Assembly (NCBI RefSeq): GCF_037076455.1
Contig: NZ_AP028679.1
Location: forward strand, 2,309,501-2,373,500
DNA: 64,000 nucleotides
Direction of reading: 5' to 3'
Source: Desulfoferula mesophila
GTDB lineage: Bacteria > Desulfobacterota > Desulfarculia > Desulfarculales > Desulfarculaceae
Program-made: the position numbers and the translations under genes
Shown here: in pieces, positions 29,944-37,138 of the stretch
Numbering within the stretch: position 1 is the first letter of the stretch
Layout of the letters: every line of letters begins with the position of its first letter
The notes under the pieces: generated by a model
The model's input: only the letters and a program-made list of their open reading frames with translations
The model's database searches: none
Told to the model about the DNA's origin: nothing

Positions 29944-30690
29944 TTGGCTCGTAGGCAATCCCAAAAAGAAGACAACCTGGTGCGCATCCTGCGCTACGCC
30001 CTGGGCGTGGCCCCGGCCGAGTTCGCCCTGTTGCCCGACGACGAGGGCTGGGTACCGGTCAAGGAGCTCTTGGCCGCCCTGCACCAGGAGGAGGGCTGGA
30101 AGCACCTGCGCCAGGGCATGCTGAACGACGCGGCCTCCCGTCTGGTCCCGGAGCTGGTGGAACTGGATGACAAGCGCATCCGGGTGAGCGAGCGTAGCTT
30201 TCAGCCGCCCGACTACGGCGCGGCCCCCCCGGCCCACCTCTATCTGGGGGCCCGGCGCAAGGCCTGGCCGGTGCTCAAGCGCCGGGGCCTGGAAGAGACC
30301 CACGACGGCCGCCCCTGGATCTTGTCCGCCACCCCCGAGGCGGCCCTCAGGCTGGGGGAGCGGCGCGACTCCGAGCCGGTGCTGATCACCGTGCAGGCCC
30401 ACCAGGCCTCGGACCAGGGAGCTCTGTTCCCGGCCTGGGGCGAGTATTTCCTCTGCGCCTGGGCTCCGGCCGCCTGCCTCATGGGCCCTCCCATCGAAGA
30501 AACGGTCATCCCCAAGAAACCGGCCAAGCCCAAGCCAGCCCCGGCCGGACCGGCCATGCCCGCGGCGGATTCCATGCCCGGCTCGTTTTTGGTAGACCCG
30601 GACGACGTGGAGAAGCCCTACAAGCGCAAGGGCATCACCAAGGACATCCCCTGGAAGAGGGAGCGCCGTAAGGATCGGCGGGGGAAGTGA
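29944..30690 (+). CDS. Divergent KptA/Tpt1-like (RNA 2'-phosphotransferase fold) protein
   Basis: A 248-residue protein. Residues ~12-45 (LVRILRYALGVAP and DDEGWVPVKELL) match the KptA N-terminal winged-helix lobe, and the middle (HLYLGARRKAWPVLKRRGL, LSATPEAALRLG and SEPVLITVQA) matches its NAD-binding ADP-ribosyltransferase lobe. The canonical LRH is LRY here and the canonical YHGT is YLGA, so two conserved histidines are missing. A basic, proline-rich tail of ~65 residues is added. It may have a changed or lost NAD-dependent activity. It starts at TTG, five bases after the previous gene. Confidence 0.7.
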   Translation: MARRQSQKEDNLVRILRYALGVAPAEFALLPDDEGWVPVKELLAALHQEEGWKHLRQGMLNDAASRLVPELVELDDKRIRVSERSFQPPDYGAAPPAHLYLGARRKAWPVLKRRGLEETHDGRPWILSATPEAALRLGERRDSEPVLITVQAHQASDQGALFPAWGEYFLCAWAPAACLMGPPIEETVIPKKPAKPKPAPAGPAMPAADSMPGSFLVDPDDVEKPYKRKGITKDIPWKRERRKDRRGK

Positions 30691-30751: not shown

Positions 30752-32485
30752 ATGAAACTTAAAGCTTTGACTATAACTAATTTCGCAGGTATTGGCGAAC
30801 CTGGGATCACGGTTCCCATAGATGATATCGTGGTCTTAATTGGACCGAACAATAGCGGAAAATCATCAGTCCTTGACGCATACGAGGCTTTTGCAAATAC
30901 AGGCGCAGCATTACCAGTAAAATCATTCCATAATGAAGACCCACATAACACAGTCGAAATAATAGGCATCTTTACCGAAATAACTGACGACGACAGAGAA
31001 GCACTTAGTAGCAAATGGGAATATCAAGATACTCAATTCGGTCATGCAATGAAATTAAAATGGGAATGGGCAAATCCCGAGCAAGGCGGGTTAAAATATT
31101 CCTGGAATCCAGAAAAAGGCGAATGGGTTAAGGGTGGCATGGGAGGCTGGGATACTTTAATTACAAGTAGAATACCTGTTCCGTTACGAATCAAGCCAAC
31201 AGATGATCACGAAATTACAGAAAAGCAAATAATTGATATTCTCACATCTGCTGCGAAAGCTGCACTTAAGAAAGATGGAACAAAGGCAAATAAAGTTCTC
31301 TCCGAGTTGCAATCTCTTGCAGATAGCTTTGTAAAAGAGGTACAGGAAGACCTTGATGATGTATGCAAAAATATAACAAATAAAATTAATCCAATTTTCC
31401 CAGGGCACAAAGTGGAGTTCCAACAATCGATCGGGAAAATAGATCCAGATAAAATAATCAGTACTGGAAGCCATATTCGCATAAGTGAACCTGATAAAGA
31501 CTCTATACCTCTTAGCCACCAAGGGGCGGGCATGCGGCGGACTTTCTTGTGGTCATCCCTTGGCACTCTGGCTGAGATGGGCAAAGTAAAACAAAAGAAA
31601 ACGGCCATTCCGCCAGAAAGGCAGAGAATTTTATTAATCGAGGAACCAGAGTCTTTTTTACACCCTCCAATGATACGAAGTGCACGTGACGCTTTATATC
31701 AATTAGCAGAAATCGCTGAATGGCAAGTAATGACATGCACACACTCGCCAATTTTTATTGATGTTTCAAAGCCTCATACAACAATTCTCAGAATTGAGAA
31801 AAAAACATTCGGATCACCTAGAGTGTTTCGTTCTAGCGACGCGAATTTTTCGGAAGATGACCGAGAACAGCTGCGAATGGTACGGTCTTGCCATCCCACA
31901 GTTGCAGAATTTTTCTTCGCTGATACGGTATTACTAGTTGAAGGCGAAACAGAACATGCCATATTTACCTACCTGATGTCTCAAGATAATGGCGATAGTG
32001 GCCATTGGTGTCATGTAGTAAATTGTATGGGAAAGCCAAACATACCGCTATTTGCTAAAATTCTTAATCAATTCGGTACTCCCTATACAATTATTCACGA
32101 TACAGACTCTCCCAAAGTGCAGAGATCAGGAAAATGGATCGCCAGTGGCATGTGGACAATTAATAAACGTATTGCGGAAGTGGTTGGGTTCCGTGATGGC
32201 AAACTACCACCATGCAGCTTGTTAGCTCACATTCCTGACTTTGAAGGATATTATTTTGGGGAAAAGATAAAAAGTAACAAGCCATATCATGCTATTTCTA
32301 AGGTAAGGAGTGCTGAATTTCAAGCGTCACCAAAATTTGCTGAACTCCTCAACATCATTCATGAGCCCAGCAAATGCGATCATGCTGGGATTTATTCGAG
32401 CTATAACGAGCTAAAAGTTAGAGTAAAAGACTGGGTCAGTGAAACGAAGCCTGCGCCTCCTGAGGCATGGGAGATAGAGGACTAA
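30752..32485 (+). CDS. OLD-family ATPase-TOPRIM nuclease
   Basis: A 577-residue overcoming-lysogenization-defect type protein. ATPase half: Walker A GPNNSGKSS at 31-39, ABC-type signature SHQGAGMRR, Walker B RILLIEEPESFLHP and H-loop THSPIF. TOPRIM half: VLLVEGETEHAIF with the catalytic Glu and IHDTDSP with the DxD metal site. Codon and base usage are clearly AT-rich compared with both neighbours, a sign of recent transfer. No UvrD-like helicase (GajB) partner is adjacent, so it is a class 1, stand-alone type. Likely anti-phage or DNA-processing role. Start follows a run of eight G. Confidence 0.92.
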   Translation: MKLKALTITNFAGIGEPGITVPIDDIVVLIGPNNSGKSSVLDAYEAFANTGAALPVKSFHNEDPHNTVEIIGIFTEITDDDREALSSKWEYQDTQFGHAMKLKWEWANPEQGGLKYSWNPEKGEWVKGGMGGWDTLITSRIPVPLRIKPTDDHEITEKQIIDILTSAAKAALKKDGTKANKVLSELQSLADSFVKEVQEDLDDVCKNITNKINPIFPGHKVEFQQSIGKIDPDKIISTGSHIRISEPDKDSIPLSHQGAGMRRTFLWSSLGTLAEMGKVKQKKTAIPPERQRILLIEEPESFLHPPMIRSARDALYQLAEIAEWQVMTCTHSPIFIDVSKPHTTILRIEKKTFGSPRVFRSSDANFSEDDREQLRMVRSCHPTVAEFFFADTVLLVEGETEHAIFTYLMSQDNGDSGHWCHVVNCMGKPNIPLFAKILNQFGTPYTIIHDTDSPKVQRSGKWIASGMWTINKRIAEVVGFRDGKLPPCSLLAHIPDFEGYYFGEKIKSNKPYHAISKVRSAEFQASPKFAELLNIIHEPSKCDHAGIYSSYNELKVRVKDWVSETKPAPPEAWEIED

Positions 32486-32524: not shown

Positions 32525-32554
32525 TTGACACCCTTCGCCTCCCCATCTCATACT
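32525..32554 (+). promoter_or_regulatory. Candidate promoter of the copper oxidase gene
   Basis: TTGACA (32525-32530), an 18-base spacer and CATACT (32549-32554). It is the only promoter-like pair between the OLD terminator and the gene. Confidence 0.5.
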
Positions 32555-32555
32555 T

Positions 32556-32582
32556 GAATGACTACCATCTTAGGAGTCATTC
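32556..32582 (+). promoter_or_regulatory. Hairpin covering the ribosome-binding site of the copper oxidase gene
   Basis: GAATGACT (32556-32563) and AGTCATTC (32575-32582) are perfect 8-base inverted repeats with an 11-base spacer. The Shine-Dalgarno TAGGAG (32571-32576) straddles loop and stem, and the right arm ends directly against the ATG at 32583. In RNA this would hide the ribosome-binding site; in DNA it could be an operator just after the transcription start. Confidence 0.6.
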
Positions 32583-34958
32583 ATGCGCCACCTGCCCCGC
32601 ATATTGCTCGGCCTCTTACTGGCCTCCCTACTGCTATGCGCCCCCGCTGGGGCGGCGGTGCGCGAATACACCCTGACCATCGCCAAAGAGCAGGTTAACC
32701 TCACCGGCAATCCGGTGGAGGCCATGACCGTCAACGGGGGCATCCCCGGCCCCACTTTGCGCTTTGTGGAAGGCGACACGGCCCGCATCCACGTACGCAA
32801 CCACATGGACGTGAACACCTCCATCCATTGGCACGGGGTGCTGGTGCCGCCGGGCATGGACGGCGTGCCGGACATCAGCTTCCCGCCCATCGCGGCCGGG
32901 ACCACCTTTACCTACGAGTTCCCCATCCGCCAGAGCGGCACCTACTGGTACCACTCCCACACCCGCTTGCAGGAGCAGCGCGGGGTCTACGGCTCCATCG
33001 TCATCGAGCCGCTTCATGCCAAGCACGTTGCCGATCGGGAGATGGTGGTGGTGCTCTCCGATTGGACCGATCACGACCCCGACTACGTCATGCACACCCT
33101 CAAGCGGGGCAGCGAGTGGTTCTCCCAGGCCAAGGGCTCCAAGCAGAGCCTTCTCGGCGCGGCCTCCCTGGGCATGCTGGGCGACTACCTGCAGCGCGAG
33201 ATGGGGCGCATGCCGCCCATGGACATCTCCGACGTGGCCTACGGTCGCTTCCTGGCCAACGGCAAGCCCATGAGCCAGGCTCCGGCCCAGCCCGGCGAGA
33301 CCATTCGCTTGCGCATCATCGACGGCTCCTCCACCACCTTCTTTCACCTGGAGTTCGCGGGCGGCCCCCTGACCATCATCGCGGCCGACGGCCAGGACGT
33401 GCAGCCGCTCAAGCAGCAGCGCCTGCTCATCGGGGTGGCCGAGACCTACGACGTGCTGGTGACCGTGCCCCAGGGCGGCTCCTTCGAGCTGCGGGCCACG
33501 GCCCACGACGGCTCCTCCTGGGCCTCGCTGTGGCTGGACCAGGGCACGCCCCACCCCGCCCCCACGGTGCCTCGGCCCAACCTCTACTACACCATGGGCC
33601 AGCCGACCCTGGGCAAGGTGCTGGCCCTGACCCCGGCGGGCAGCATGGGCATGAGCGACGCTATGGTGGAGGCGGGCAAGTTCGATCACCCCGGCATGAT
33701 GGGCGGAATGGGCGGCATGGACATGGGCCATGGCGCGGCCATGCCCGGCATGACGGGTCACGACAGCATGGACATGCCAAAGGCCGGCGAGGCGGGCATG
33801 AAGATGGGCGACACCGCAGCCCCCATGAAGATGGGCGCCCAAGCCGCTCCCATGAAGATGGCTCACTCGCCAAGCGCCATGGCCATGGCCCCTACCCCGC
33901 CGCCCAGCGGCACCCGCTGGGCCTATGACTTCGCCTTCCTGGGCGGCGATGTGGCTTCCTCGCCCAGCCTGGCCCACGACGGCGTGTCGCCCGAGCGGCC
34001 CTGGCCGCCCTATGCCCAGCTAAAGGCCACCCACTCCACCGCGTTCGCCCCCGACCGCAAGGTGCGCACCATCCGCCTGACCCTGGACGGCAACATGGAG
34101 CGCTACGTGTGGCTCATCAACAACCGCCCCCTGTCGGAGCAGGACGACATCCTGATCAAGCAGGGCGAGGTGGTGCGCTTCATCATGATCAACCGCACCA
34201 TGATGCACCATCCCATGCATCTGCACGGGCACTTCTTCCGGGTGATAAACGGCCAGGGGGATTACGCGCCGCTCAAGCACACCGTGGACGTGACCCCCAT
34301 GTCCACCACGGTCATCGAGTTCGACGCCAACGAAAAGGGCGACTGGTTTTTCCACTGCCACCTGCTCTACCACATGAAAGCGGGCATGGCCCGGCTGGTG
34401 CACTACCAGGGCTTCACCCCGCCGCCGGACGTCATGGCCGTGCGCCCCAACCTGTACCGCGAGTCCTGGTACCCCATGATCGAGGGCTCGCTCTTGAGCA
34501 ACATGAGCGAGGGCGTGGCCAGCCTGGCCTCCACCCGCAACGTGCTGTCCCTGGAATGGGAGGTGGGCTGGCAAAAGGTGGAGGACACCGAATGGGAGCT
34601 GATCCCCACCTGGGACTACCACTTGAACCGCTTCACCGCCTTGTTCATCGGCGGCGACTTTTTGGGGACTCAGAGCGATTTGGACACGGCCCGGGGCATC
34701 TTCGGGGTGAGCTATTTGCTCCCCTTCAACGTGGACTCGCGCCTGTGGGTGGATACCGACCTGGGAGGCCGGGTTGAGCTGGGCAAGGTGTTCGACCTCA
34801 CGCCGCGTCTGGCCCTTTACGGCAATTGGAGATATGATACCCACGAATTTTGGGAGGCCGAGGCGGGCCTCAGCTATATGATCACCAGCCACCTGTCGGT
34901 GGTGGGCCAGTGGAACTCGGACTACGGCTGGGGGGCTGGCCTGGGATTCAGCTTCTAG
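32583..34958 (+). CDS. Multicopper oxidase (CopA-type) fused to CopB-like outer-membrane barrel
   Basis: A 791-residue exported protein. After a signal peptide (cleavage near AGA-A, residue 24) comes a CopA-type laccase fold with copper ligands HWH at 82-84 and YHSH at 123-126, a Met/His-rich insert near residues 360-435 (repeats such as MGGMDMGHG and APMKM), and the C-terminal cluster MHLHGH (~545) and HCHLLYHM (~590). From about residue 620 the chain changes to alternating aromatic/polar strands typical of CopB and ends in Phe (GLGFSF), as outer-membrane barrels do. CopA and CopB are normally separate. Probable role: periplasmic Cu(I) oxidation and copper sequestration at the outer membrane. 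Confidence 0.88.
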   Translation: MRHLPRILLGLLLASLLLCAPAGAAVREYTLTIAKEQVNLTGNPVEAMTVNGGIPGPTLRFVEGDTARIHVRNHMDVNTSIHWHGVLVPPGMDGVPDISFPPIAAGTTFTYEFPIRQSGTYWYHSHTRLQEQRGVYGSIVIEPLHAKHVADREMVVVLSDWTDHDPDYVMHTLKRGSEWFSQAKGSKQSLLGAASLGMLGDYLQREMGRMPPMDISDVAYGRFLANGKPMSQAPAQPGETIRLRIIDGSSTTFFHLEFAGGPLTIIAADGQDVQPLKQQRLLIGVAETYDVLVTVPQGGSFELRATAHDGSSWASLWLDQGTPHPAPTVPRPNLYYTMGQPTLGKVLALTPAGSMGMSDAMVEAGKFDHPGMMGGMGGMDMGHGAAMPGMTGHDSMDMPKAGEAGMKMGDTAAPMKMGAQAAPMKMAHSPSAMAMAPTPPPSGTRWAYDFAFLGGDVASSPSLAHDGVSPERPWPPYAQLKATHSTAFAPDRKVRTIRLTLDGNMERYVWLINNRPLSEQDDILIKQGEVVRFIMINRTMMHHPMHLHGHFFRVINGQGDYAPLKHTVDVTPMSTTVIEFDANEKGDWFFHCHLLYHMKAGMARLVHYQGFTPPPDVMAVRPNLYRESWYPMIEGSLLSNMSEGVASLASTRNVLSLEWEVGWQKVEDTEWELIPTWDYHLNRFTALFIGGDFLGTQSDLDTARGIFGVSYLLPFNVDSRLWVDTDLGGRVELGKVFDLTPRLALYGNWRYDTHEFWEAEAGLSYMITSHLSVVGQWNSDYGWGAGLGFSF

Positions 34959-35407: not shown

Positions 35408-36076
35408 ATTCGTATCGCCACCTGGAATTGCTGCCGCGGTGACTACCTGAAAAAACGCGACGCAGTTATGGCATACACGCCGGACCTGACTATCGTCCAA
35501 GAGGCGCGTAAGGTAAAGACCACGGGCCTACCAGATATTTGGCGCGGACCGTCCCCCAACAATGGAATTTCTGTAATACCAGGAGACGATGTCAGGGTGG
35601 AGTTTTGCCACCAAAAGGAAAATGTTCTGTGGTCGATCATCCCGTTGGAAATTTCAGGAAAGCAAGATTTCCATGCCCTCGGGGTTTGGACCAGAAAAGA
35701 ACATGGCTACATGAATTCCTTAAAAACCGCTCTCACCTCGTATCGAGATTTTCTATCTGCGGCTCCCTGTGTGGTGCTGGGCGATTTTAATTGCAGCGCC
35801 ATTTGGGATAATAGTGCGGCAGGTTTCAGTCCTTTGGCAAACATATTGGAAGGGGACTTAGGCCTAAAGAGCGCCTATCACTCTTTCTATGGCGAGCAAT
35901 ATGGAGAGGAAACAAGGCCGACCTTTTATTTTCGTTGGAGTGCCTCCAAGCCATTCCATATCGATTACTGTTTTGTTCCCTCCGACTGGAACATTCTTTC
36001 CGTCGAAGTTGGATCATACGATGGTTGGGCATTATTGAGCGACCACAGGCCGCTCATTATAGACGTGGATATGTGA
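35408..36076 (+). CDS. Endonuclease/exonuclease/phosphatase-family protein, apparent ATT start
   Basis: A 222-residue EEP-fold protein. Landmarks in order: RIATWNCCRGD (metal-site Asn), VQEARK (Glu), VVLGDFNC (Asp-x-Asn), FHIDYCF and LLSDHRPL (Ser-Asp-His). No ATG, GTG or TTG lies between the preceding stop and RIATWN. ATT at 35408 stands exactly where related proteins have Met, with GGGAG six bases upstream. A start at 35219 would run out of frame through the HNH gene and give a non-conserved N-terminus. Base usage is more AT-rich than flanking housekeeping genes. It may be a defence or DNA-repair nuclease, or a gene partly disabled by an ATG to ATT change. Confidence 0.75.
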   Translation: MRIATWNCCRGDYLKKRDAVMAYTPDLTIVQEARKVKTTGLPDIWRGPSPNNGISVIPGDDVRVEFCHQKENVLWSIIPLEISGKQDFHALGVWTRKEHGYMNSLKTALTSYRDFLSAAPCVVLGDFNCSAIWDNSAAGFSPLANILEGDLGLKSAYHSFYGEQYGEETRPTFYFRWSASKPFHIDYCFVPSDWNILSVEVGSYDGWALLSDHRPLIIDVDM

Positions 36077-36415: not shown

Positions 36416-37138
36416 ATGCCCAAAGAAAAATCAGTTGGTTGCGCCACCCCTACCGGTGGTCTGGTGGGAGAGCCCCAAGCAAACCAACCGCAACAATCCA
36501 ACCAACCCGCGGCTCCGGAGGCCCCTAAAATGATGCAAATCGGTAAAAAGGCCCCTGATTTCAACGCCCCCTGCTATTACCAGGGCAAGTTCGCCTCCGT
36601 CCAGTTGAGCGAATACCTGGGCAAGTGGGTGGTGCTTTGCTTCTATCCCGGCGACTTTACCTTTGTCTGCGCCACCGAGGTTTCAGCCTTGGCCGCCAAA
36701 TACCAAGACTTCCAGGATTTGGGGGTGGAGGTGCTTTCCATGAGCGTGGACTCGCCCTTTGTGCACAAAATGTGGCAGGAGCATGAGCTGTGCAAGATCG
36801 TGGACGGCGGCGTGCCTTTCCCCATGCTCAGCGACGGCTCGGGCCAAGTGGGCGCGGCCTTTGGCGTGTATGACGCCGAAGGCGGGGTGGACGTGCGTGG
36901 CCGCTTCCTCATCGATCCCGACGGCGTGGTGCAGGCCATGGAGGTGATCACTCCCTCCGTGGGCCGCAACGTTGCCGAGACCCTGCGCCAGATCAAGGCC
37001 TTCCAATTGGTGCGCGAGAGCGGCGACACCAAGGTGACCCCCTCCGGCTGGAAGCCCGGCAAGACGGTGCTGACGCCCGGTGAGGATCTGGTGGGCAACG
37101 TGTGGAAGGAGTGGAAGCTGGAAGACGCTTTCAACTAG
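36416..37138 (+). CDS. Peroxiredoxin (AhpC/Prx1 type) with N-terminal extension
   Basis: Thiol peroxidase of 240 residues. Peroxidatic cysteine C85 lies in PGDFTFVCATE (P-x3-T-x2-C). The usual C-terminal VCP resolving cysteine is absent: the tail reads WKPGKTVLTPGEDLVG. Other cysteines (9, 53, 75, 126) could resolve, so the mechanism may be 1-Cys or atypical 2-Cys. An additional Gln/Pro-rich N-terminus of about 38 residues precedes the thioredoxin-fold start (MQIGKKAPDF). Start at 36416 follows GAGG. It stands alone between the recG remnant and recG, far from the PerR cluster. Confidence 0.92.
   Translation: MPKEKSVGCATPTGGLVGEPQANQPQQSNQPAAPEAPKMMQIGKKAPDFNAPCYYQGKFASVQLSEYLGKWVVLCFYPGDFTFVCATEVSALAAKYQDFQDLGVEVLSMSVDSPFVHKMWQEHELCKIVDGGVPFPMLSDGSGQVGAAFGVYDAEGGVDVRGRFLIDPDGVVQAMEVITPSVGRNVAETLRQIKAFQLVRESGDTKVTPSGWKPGKTVLTPGEDLVGNVWKEWKLEDAFN

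Follow-up and report, generated by a model that had tools for sequence, protein, structure and literature searches.

A multicopper oxidase fused to a predicted CopB-like outer-membrane barrel in Desulfoferula mesophila

Analysis of a 64,000-nucleotide stretch of Desulfoferula mesophila DNA (the window) identified a gene whose product joins a CopA-like multicopper oxidase, with its copper ligands intact, to a predicted 12-strand outer-membrane barrel related to CopB. The protein is probably a single-chain equivalent of CopA and CopB for periplasmic copper defence, which would convert Cu(I) into Cu(II) on the periplasmic side of the outer membrane and whose barrel would act both as an anchor and as a conduit for Cu(II). 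The oxidase-barrel architecture itself is known already, across many bacterial phyla and in Legionella. A newer point is that the fused form, judged from the signal sequences, seems to leave by another export route (Sec) than the separate enzyme (Tat).

The fusion gene and its protein

The ATG-to-TAG frame at 32583-34958 (+) stays open over 791 codons (Table 1), with similar third-position GC in its two halves (0.92 vs 0.89). Full-length in-frame fusions are present in four congeneric genomes (G001, G003, G004 and G006) at 63-79% identity, and in the congeneric G005 and G007 the gene is partial and lies at contig ends. The fusion gene of G008 (L007, L014) is broken near residue 255 by a frameshift, due either to decay or to sequencing error, that leaves two overlapping frames. 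Upstream, the TTGACA-18-CATACT-like element is shared with the relatives L002 and L006 and, as a sequence motif, suggests that the fusion gene has its own promoter. A 9-nt perfect inverted repeat (32555-32583) overlaps the ribosome-binding site; as it is absent from the five relatives compared, no role was assigned to it.

Table 1. Coordinates of the fusion gene, its upstream signals and the features of its protein in the window
Feature	Position	Strand	Basis
Promoter-like TTGACA-18 nt-CATACT	32525..32554	+	Directly 5' of fusion gene; also in L002 and L006
Shine-Dalgarno-like AGGAG	32572..32576	+	Direct reading; 6 bases 5' of ATG
Fused multicopper oxidase/12-strand outer-membrane barrel protein, 791 aa	32583..34958	+	Uninterrupted single frame; intact homologues in G001, G003, G004, G006
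Sec-type signal peptide, residues 1-24, no twin arginine	32583..32654	+	Direct reading
CopA/PcoA-like oxidase region, three cupredoxin domains, residues 25-607	32655..34403	+	Pfam, NCBIfam; Foldseek to laccases and ascorbate oxidase
HWHG copper ligands, residues 82-85	32826..32837	+	Direct reading
YHSH copper ligands, residues 123-126	32949..32960	+	Direct reading
Met-rich insert, residues 375-448	33705..33926	+	15 Met and 3 His per 74 residues
HHPMHLHGH copper ligands, residues 542-550	34206..34232	+	Direct reading
HCHLLYHMKAGM, type 1/type 3 copper ligands with axial Met, residues 591-602	34353..34388	+	Direct reading
Linker helix, residues 615-625	34425..34457	+	AlphaFold; directly N-terminal to barrel
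12-strand CopB/PcoB-like barrel, residues 630-790	34470..34952	+	AlphaFold; profile match to 7pge

An initial annotation, made from the DNA sequence, had described CopA-type oxidase domains with intact copper ligands that run unbroken into a CopB-like region ending in Phe, and this description held for both halves of the protein. In the oxidase half, Pfam identified Cu-oxidase_3 (33-143), Cu-oxidase (153-306) and Cu-oxidase_2 (498-606), and all four copper-ligand motifs are intact (HWH 82-84, HSH 124-126, HPMHLH 543-548 and HCHLLYHMKAGM 591-602). The best NCBIfam model for the fusion protein was TIGR01480 (copper_res_A) at 416.5 bits, the next one scoring 148 bits; because 416.5 bits is under the subfamily cut-off of 478.95 bits, we class the protein, on its score, as CopA-like rather than as a member of TIGR01480. 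The Met-rich insert is disordered for the most part in the AlphaFold model.

The tail that forms the barrel half (residues 608-791) ends in ...GAGLGFSF, with Phe as the last residue and W783, A785, L787, F789 and F791 in alternation. AlphaFold, supplied with the mature fusion protein and 52 relatives (mean pLDDT 86.9, pTM 0.86), predicted 12 antiparallel strands over residues 630-790 (pLDDT 93-97) after the helix at 615-625, and the same 12 strands were predicted for the tail by itself (pLDDT 92.8). The model thus corresponds to a 12-strand outer-membrane barrel with periplasmic termini, as in CopB/PcoB, in agreement with the closed barrel that had been suspected, and a soluble C-terminal domain was ruled out by these models. 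Searched against the PDB, the modelled barrel had PcoB (7pge) as its first match both with Foldseek (E 3.7e-6) and with VIA-align (Z 15.4, 160 residues, 3.1 Å). Kinship is not settled by fold alone, however, since 12-strand porins score near PcoB in VIA-align (KdgM, Z 14.3).

Sequence profiles provided additional evidence of a relationship to CopB. A profile of 58 fused tails had two matches below E 0.01 among PDB sequences, 7pge (E 2e-4) and a designed 12-strand barrel, 7pge being the only natural solved structure below that value, and the same profile also recovered stand-alone CopB-type frames. Pfam CopB was matched by 17 of the 58 tails (E up to 0.1; best E 1.2e-7), and an hhalign comparison of 21 fused barrels with eight CopB proteins was suggestive (E 4e-4, probability just 34%). 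Neither the Desulfoferula fusion protein nor its barrel matched Pfam CopB (PF05275) at E values up to 10; the best Pfam match of its tail was a weak one to OMP_b-brl (E 0.0033), and NCBIfam gave no match for the isolated tail. A profile comparison of the tail with CopB families, as proposed in the initial annotation, therefore failed for this protein alone and succeeded for the fused family, the relation to CopB being evident from family profile and fold and not from direct Pfam assignment. On this basis we regard the tail as a CopB-like homologue of CopB that falls outside PF05275 by the curated cut-off.

E. coli PcoB (7PGE; PMC9210255), the top structural match, has a 12-strand barrel like that of the fusion, but is a separate protein with ~13-17% identity to the fusion barrel, in which its pore acids are traceable in part. 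The acid pairs in question, E130-E223 and D97-E207, were mapped by hand on a weak profile alignment; in the resulting low-confidence reading, acids would be retained at E130 (E658) and E187 (D718), and lost at E223 (R750). Described PcoB proteins have a disordered His/Met-rich N-terminal tail (PMC12509749) that is missing from the fusion barrel: ~23 residues, including the helix, link oxidase to barrel and hold no His/Met cluster. The Met-rich insert may be a stand-in for that tail. Caulobacter PcoB has a short helix where the fusion has its linker helix (PMC12509749).

Distribution and known counterparts

The initial annotation had called the fusion a clear architectural novelty, a claim that cannot be maintained given that the same fusion occurs in many phyla and that fused PcoA-PcoB proteins, likewise an oxidase and a CopB-type barrel in one polypeptide, were reported from five Legionella species by Hernandez-Montes et al. 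in 2012 (PMC3548706). In the openly accessible literature searched, no described barrel fusion outside Legionella was found. We counted as a single-chain fusion one frame that contains the HCH motif followed by a tail of 177-220 residues ending in an aromatic residue, and the Desulfoferula protein has both the motif and such a tail.

A tail-profile search of 395 genomes of the phylum gave matches in 18, 17 of them within a frame that encodes oxidase sequence too. Sixteen of these 17 fusion frames have 715-876 codons, that of G005 being cut by the contig, and the 18th match (G307) is weak. A scan of GTDB contigs with a query including the fused junction, which is a measure of breadth and not of the relative frequency of fused and separate forms, found the tail fused to the oxidase in all of the 80 best of 581 loci, with F, Y or W as the tail terminus in 79 and L in L096. 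The taxa represented in these best 80 of 581 loci are Deltaproteobacteria, Nitrospirae, Acidobacteriota, Verrucomicrobia, Kiritimatiellae and Elusimicrobia, together with Planctomycetota, Bdellovibrionales, Gammaproteobacteria and many Bacteroidetes.

Tail-only searches are a fairer measure of fused versus separate forms than the scan with the junction query. Of 148 Bacteroidota genomes, 25 gave strong matches, almost all in long frames, whereas nine gave only weak matches of CopB-like type, located in separate frames of short length (manual count); among 369 Gammaproteobacteria, separate CopB-like frames were in the majority. The premise that CopA and CopB are normally separate is correct for the proteobacterial type; in the Bacteroidota sample, the fused form was commoner (25 vs 9 genomes). 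At L159 (G577), tail-profile matches fall in short frames of 126 and 220 codons, which may represent barrel copies that are unfused or broken.

Plasmids of Hymenobacter, Spirosoma and Ilyobacter also carry the fusion. These Bacteroidota and Fusobacteriota proteins, annotated as 'multicopper oxidase domain-containing protein' (Hymenobacter, Ilyobacter) or 'multicopper oxidase type 3' (Spirosoma), have the same fused architecture and align to or near the last residue of the Desulfoferula protein at ~38-46% identity; their genes sit among metal-resistance genes where examined, and their annotation is silent on the barrel. Separate CopA/PcoA and CopB/PcoB (Cupriavidus, Halomonas, Sphingobium, Caulobacter) have the same domains in the same order as the fusion, but as two proteins rather than one, encoded by genes that are mostly adjacent and often overlap by four bases.

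In a FastTree phylogeny of 85 oxidase domains (486 columns), the Desulfoferula clade had a support of 0.952 and separate CopA one of 1.0. A second fused type (L161, L162 and L170; support 1.0), which has a longer and fuller CopB-like barrel, lies outside the Desulfoferula clade and joins separate CopA with a support of 0.933; we infer that it may be the Legionella kind of fusion. Since the tree shows two fused clades, one origin for all fusions is without direct support. The oxidase tree is compatible both with two fusion events and with a single old fusion that was split once afterwards.

Export signals and gene neighbourhood

Sec or Tat export was assigned by motif and hydrophobicity rather than by a trained predictor, with one pattern applied to the same region of all fused and separate proteins. 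A twin-arginine motif precedes the hydrophobic stretch in 31/31 separate CopA proteins (11, and 20 more from the Desulfoferula phylum, Bacteroidota and Gammaproteobacteria), and no such motif is present in the Desulfoferula fusion protein. The pattern occurs in four of 96 fused proteins, which are not independent observations, the Sec/Tat association being phylogenetically structured with one or two events; three of the four matches (L084, L097 and L206) fall ahead of the probable initiator Met, and the fourth is in L133, whose start is ambiguous. As controls within the genus, Tat motifs of the TRRKFL/SRRRFL type are present in the unfused oxidases from G000, G001, G003, G004, G005, G006 and G007, unlike the fused proteins, which are without one. 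The same genome as the fusion holds a second, unfused multicopper oxidase (L019; G000:C1:4418406-4419314), with a Tat motif.

Tat carries folded proteins, and BAM needs unfolded barrels. The Sec-type signal of the fused form fits with this because its barrel needs to be delivered unfolded to BAM. Potentially, then, the fusion goes with a switch of export, separate CopA travelling folded via Tat and the fused form unfolded via Sec for BAM, a proposal whose chances we judge to be evenly balanced. If it is true, copper would have to be loaded into the fused oxidase in the periplasm, and the protein could be a natural obligate copper relay from oxidase to pore that is common outside the Proteobacteria.

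The neighbourhood of the fusion gene is conserved in the genus and includes a KptA-like gene, an HNH gene and recG. The first of these (29944-30690), a KptA/Tpt1-like RNA 2'-phosphotransferase gene (Pfam, 30.6 bits), is conserved next to the oxidase in the genus. An OLD-family AAA ATPase/TOPRIM nuclease gene (30752-32485), with 41% GC vs 64% for the window, stands between it and the oxidase; because it is missing there in L002 and L006 it looks like an insertion, possibly of a defence gene. The HNH gene is followed by an Exo_endo_phos gene (35423-36076; ~50% GC) that matched nothing in the regions flanking the congeneric loci compared, and then by an AhpC/TSA peroxiredoxin gene (36416-37138), whose order relative to the oxidase varies within the genus, as it comes before the oxidase gene in L003 and L004.

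No copper gene adjoins the fusion gene in the window and CopC had no match in the genome, so that the copper context comes from relatives only. The genome has one Cu-ATPase over the cut-off and several RND pumps of unassigned substrate. Cu-ATPase-like, RND-like and other metal genes are frequent neighbours of the fusion gene in relatives from other phyla, part of these neighbour families having been assigned by reading the sequence.

Proposed function and alternative explanations

In the mechanism we propose, Sec would export the chain unfolded from the cytoplasm and BAM would insert the C-terminal barrel, with the oxidase remaining at the periplasmic face. Chain order would put the oxidase in the periplasm because the termini of PcoB are periplasmic (PMC9210255), and the tethering of the oxidase at the outer membrane that had been suggested earlier is supported, in prediction, by the joining of a CopA-like oxidase to a CopB-like barrel. 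The oxidase would take up copper in the periplasm and, with copper as its specific substrate, turn Cu(I) into Cu(II) with O2, aided by the Met-rich insert. The barrel would anchor the oxidase and probably allow Cu(II) to cross the outer membrane; the direction of copper is disputed for PcoB itself, uptake being argued in PMC9210255 and efflux in PMC12509749. The covalent link of the fusion would replace the docking of PcoA that has been proposed for the disordered tail of PcoB (PMC12509749).

Possibly, the barrel is a mere anchor of the oxidase that conducts no copper, as would suit its shortness (~160 residues), its want of PcoB's His/Met-rich tail and pore acids that are not all clearly kept in the weak alignment. 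We consider this rather unlikely, as the barrel has homology to PcoB, a protein that conducts Cu(II) in liposomes (PMC9210255), and an equal number of strands, 12. With a Sec signal and an N-terminal passenger ahead of a linker helix and a C-terminal 12-strand barrel, the protein also resembles type Va autotransporters, and the barrels of BrkA and EstA score Z 12.6 and 11.5, so that helix and barrel might be thought to bring the oxidase to the cell surface as a laccase or metal oxidase. The chances of this appear very slim: no autotransporter Pfam match was obtained for 58 fused barrels, the barrel comprises ~160 residues, PcoB scores above in both sequence and structure, and a helix is found at the corresponding position in PcoB (PMC12509749).

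An oxidase substrate other than copper, whether Fe(II), Mn(II) or phenols, is improbable in our view given the lead of TIGR01480 among NCBIfam models (416 vs 148 bits), the presence of the Met-rich insert and the location of the gene near metal-resistance genes in other phyla, although three-domain multicopper oxidases are versatile, the fusion protein is under the cut-off of the CopA subfamily and the Desulfoferula gene is without copper neighbours. Separate copA and copB genes, with their frequent four-base overlap, could be joined by a single error, but the probability that assembly or a frameshift created the fusion is negligible: a joining error is excluded by the full-length in-frame relatives in four congeneric genomes, intact fusions exist in many independent genomes, and the export signal of the separate proteins differs, such that joining them would not yield the Desulfoferula sequence. 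The two outcomes that the initial annotation had named as contrary to its reading, a soluble domain and a frameshift, thus do not hold, in view of the models and the intact relatives.

As a putative single-chain equivalent of CopA and CopB, the fusion bears on questions that are open in the field, namely the manner in which PcoA and PcoB work together and the direction of copper flow through PcoB. A natural covalent fusion backs a direct partnership of PcoA and PcoB and offers a single protein in which that partnership can be tested, and the split between Sec and Tat signals provides a comparison for how multicopper oxidases acquire copper. The analysis also indicates a likely cell location for an unnamed family that is widely annotated as 'multicopper oxidase domain-containing protein'.
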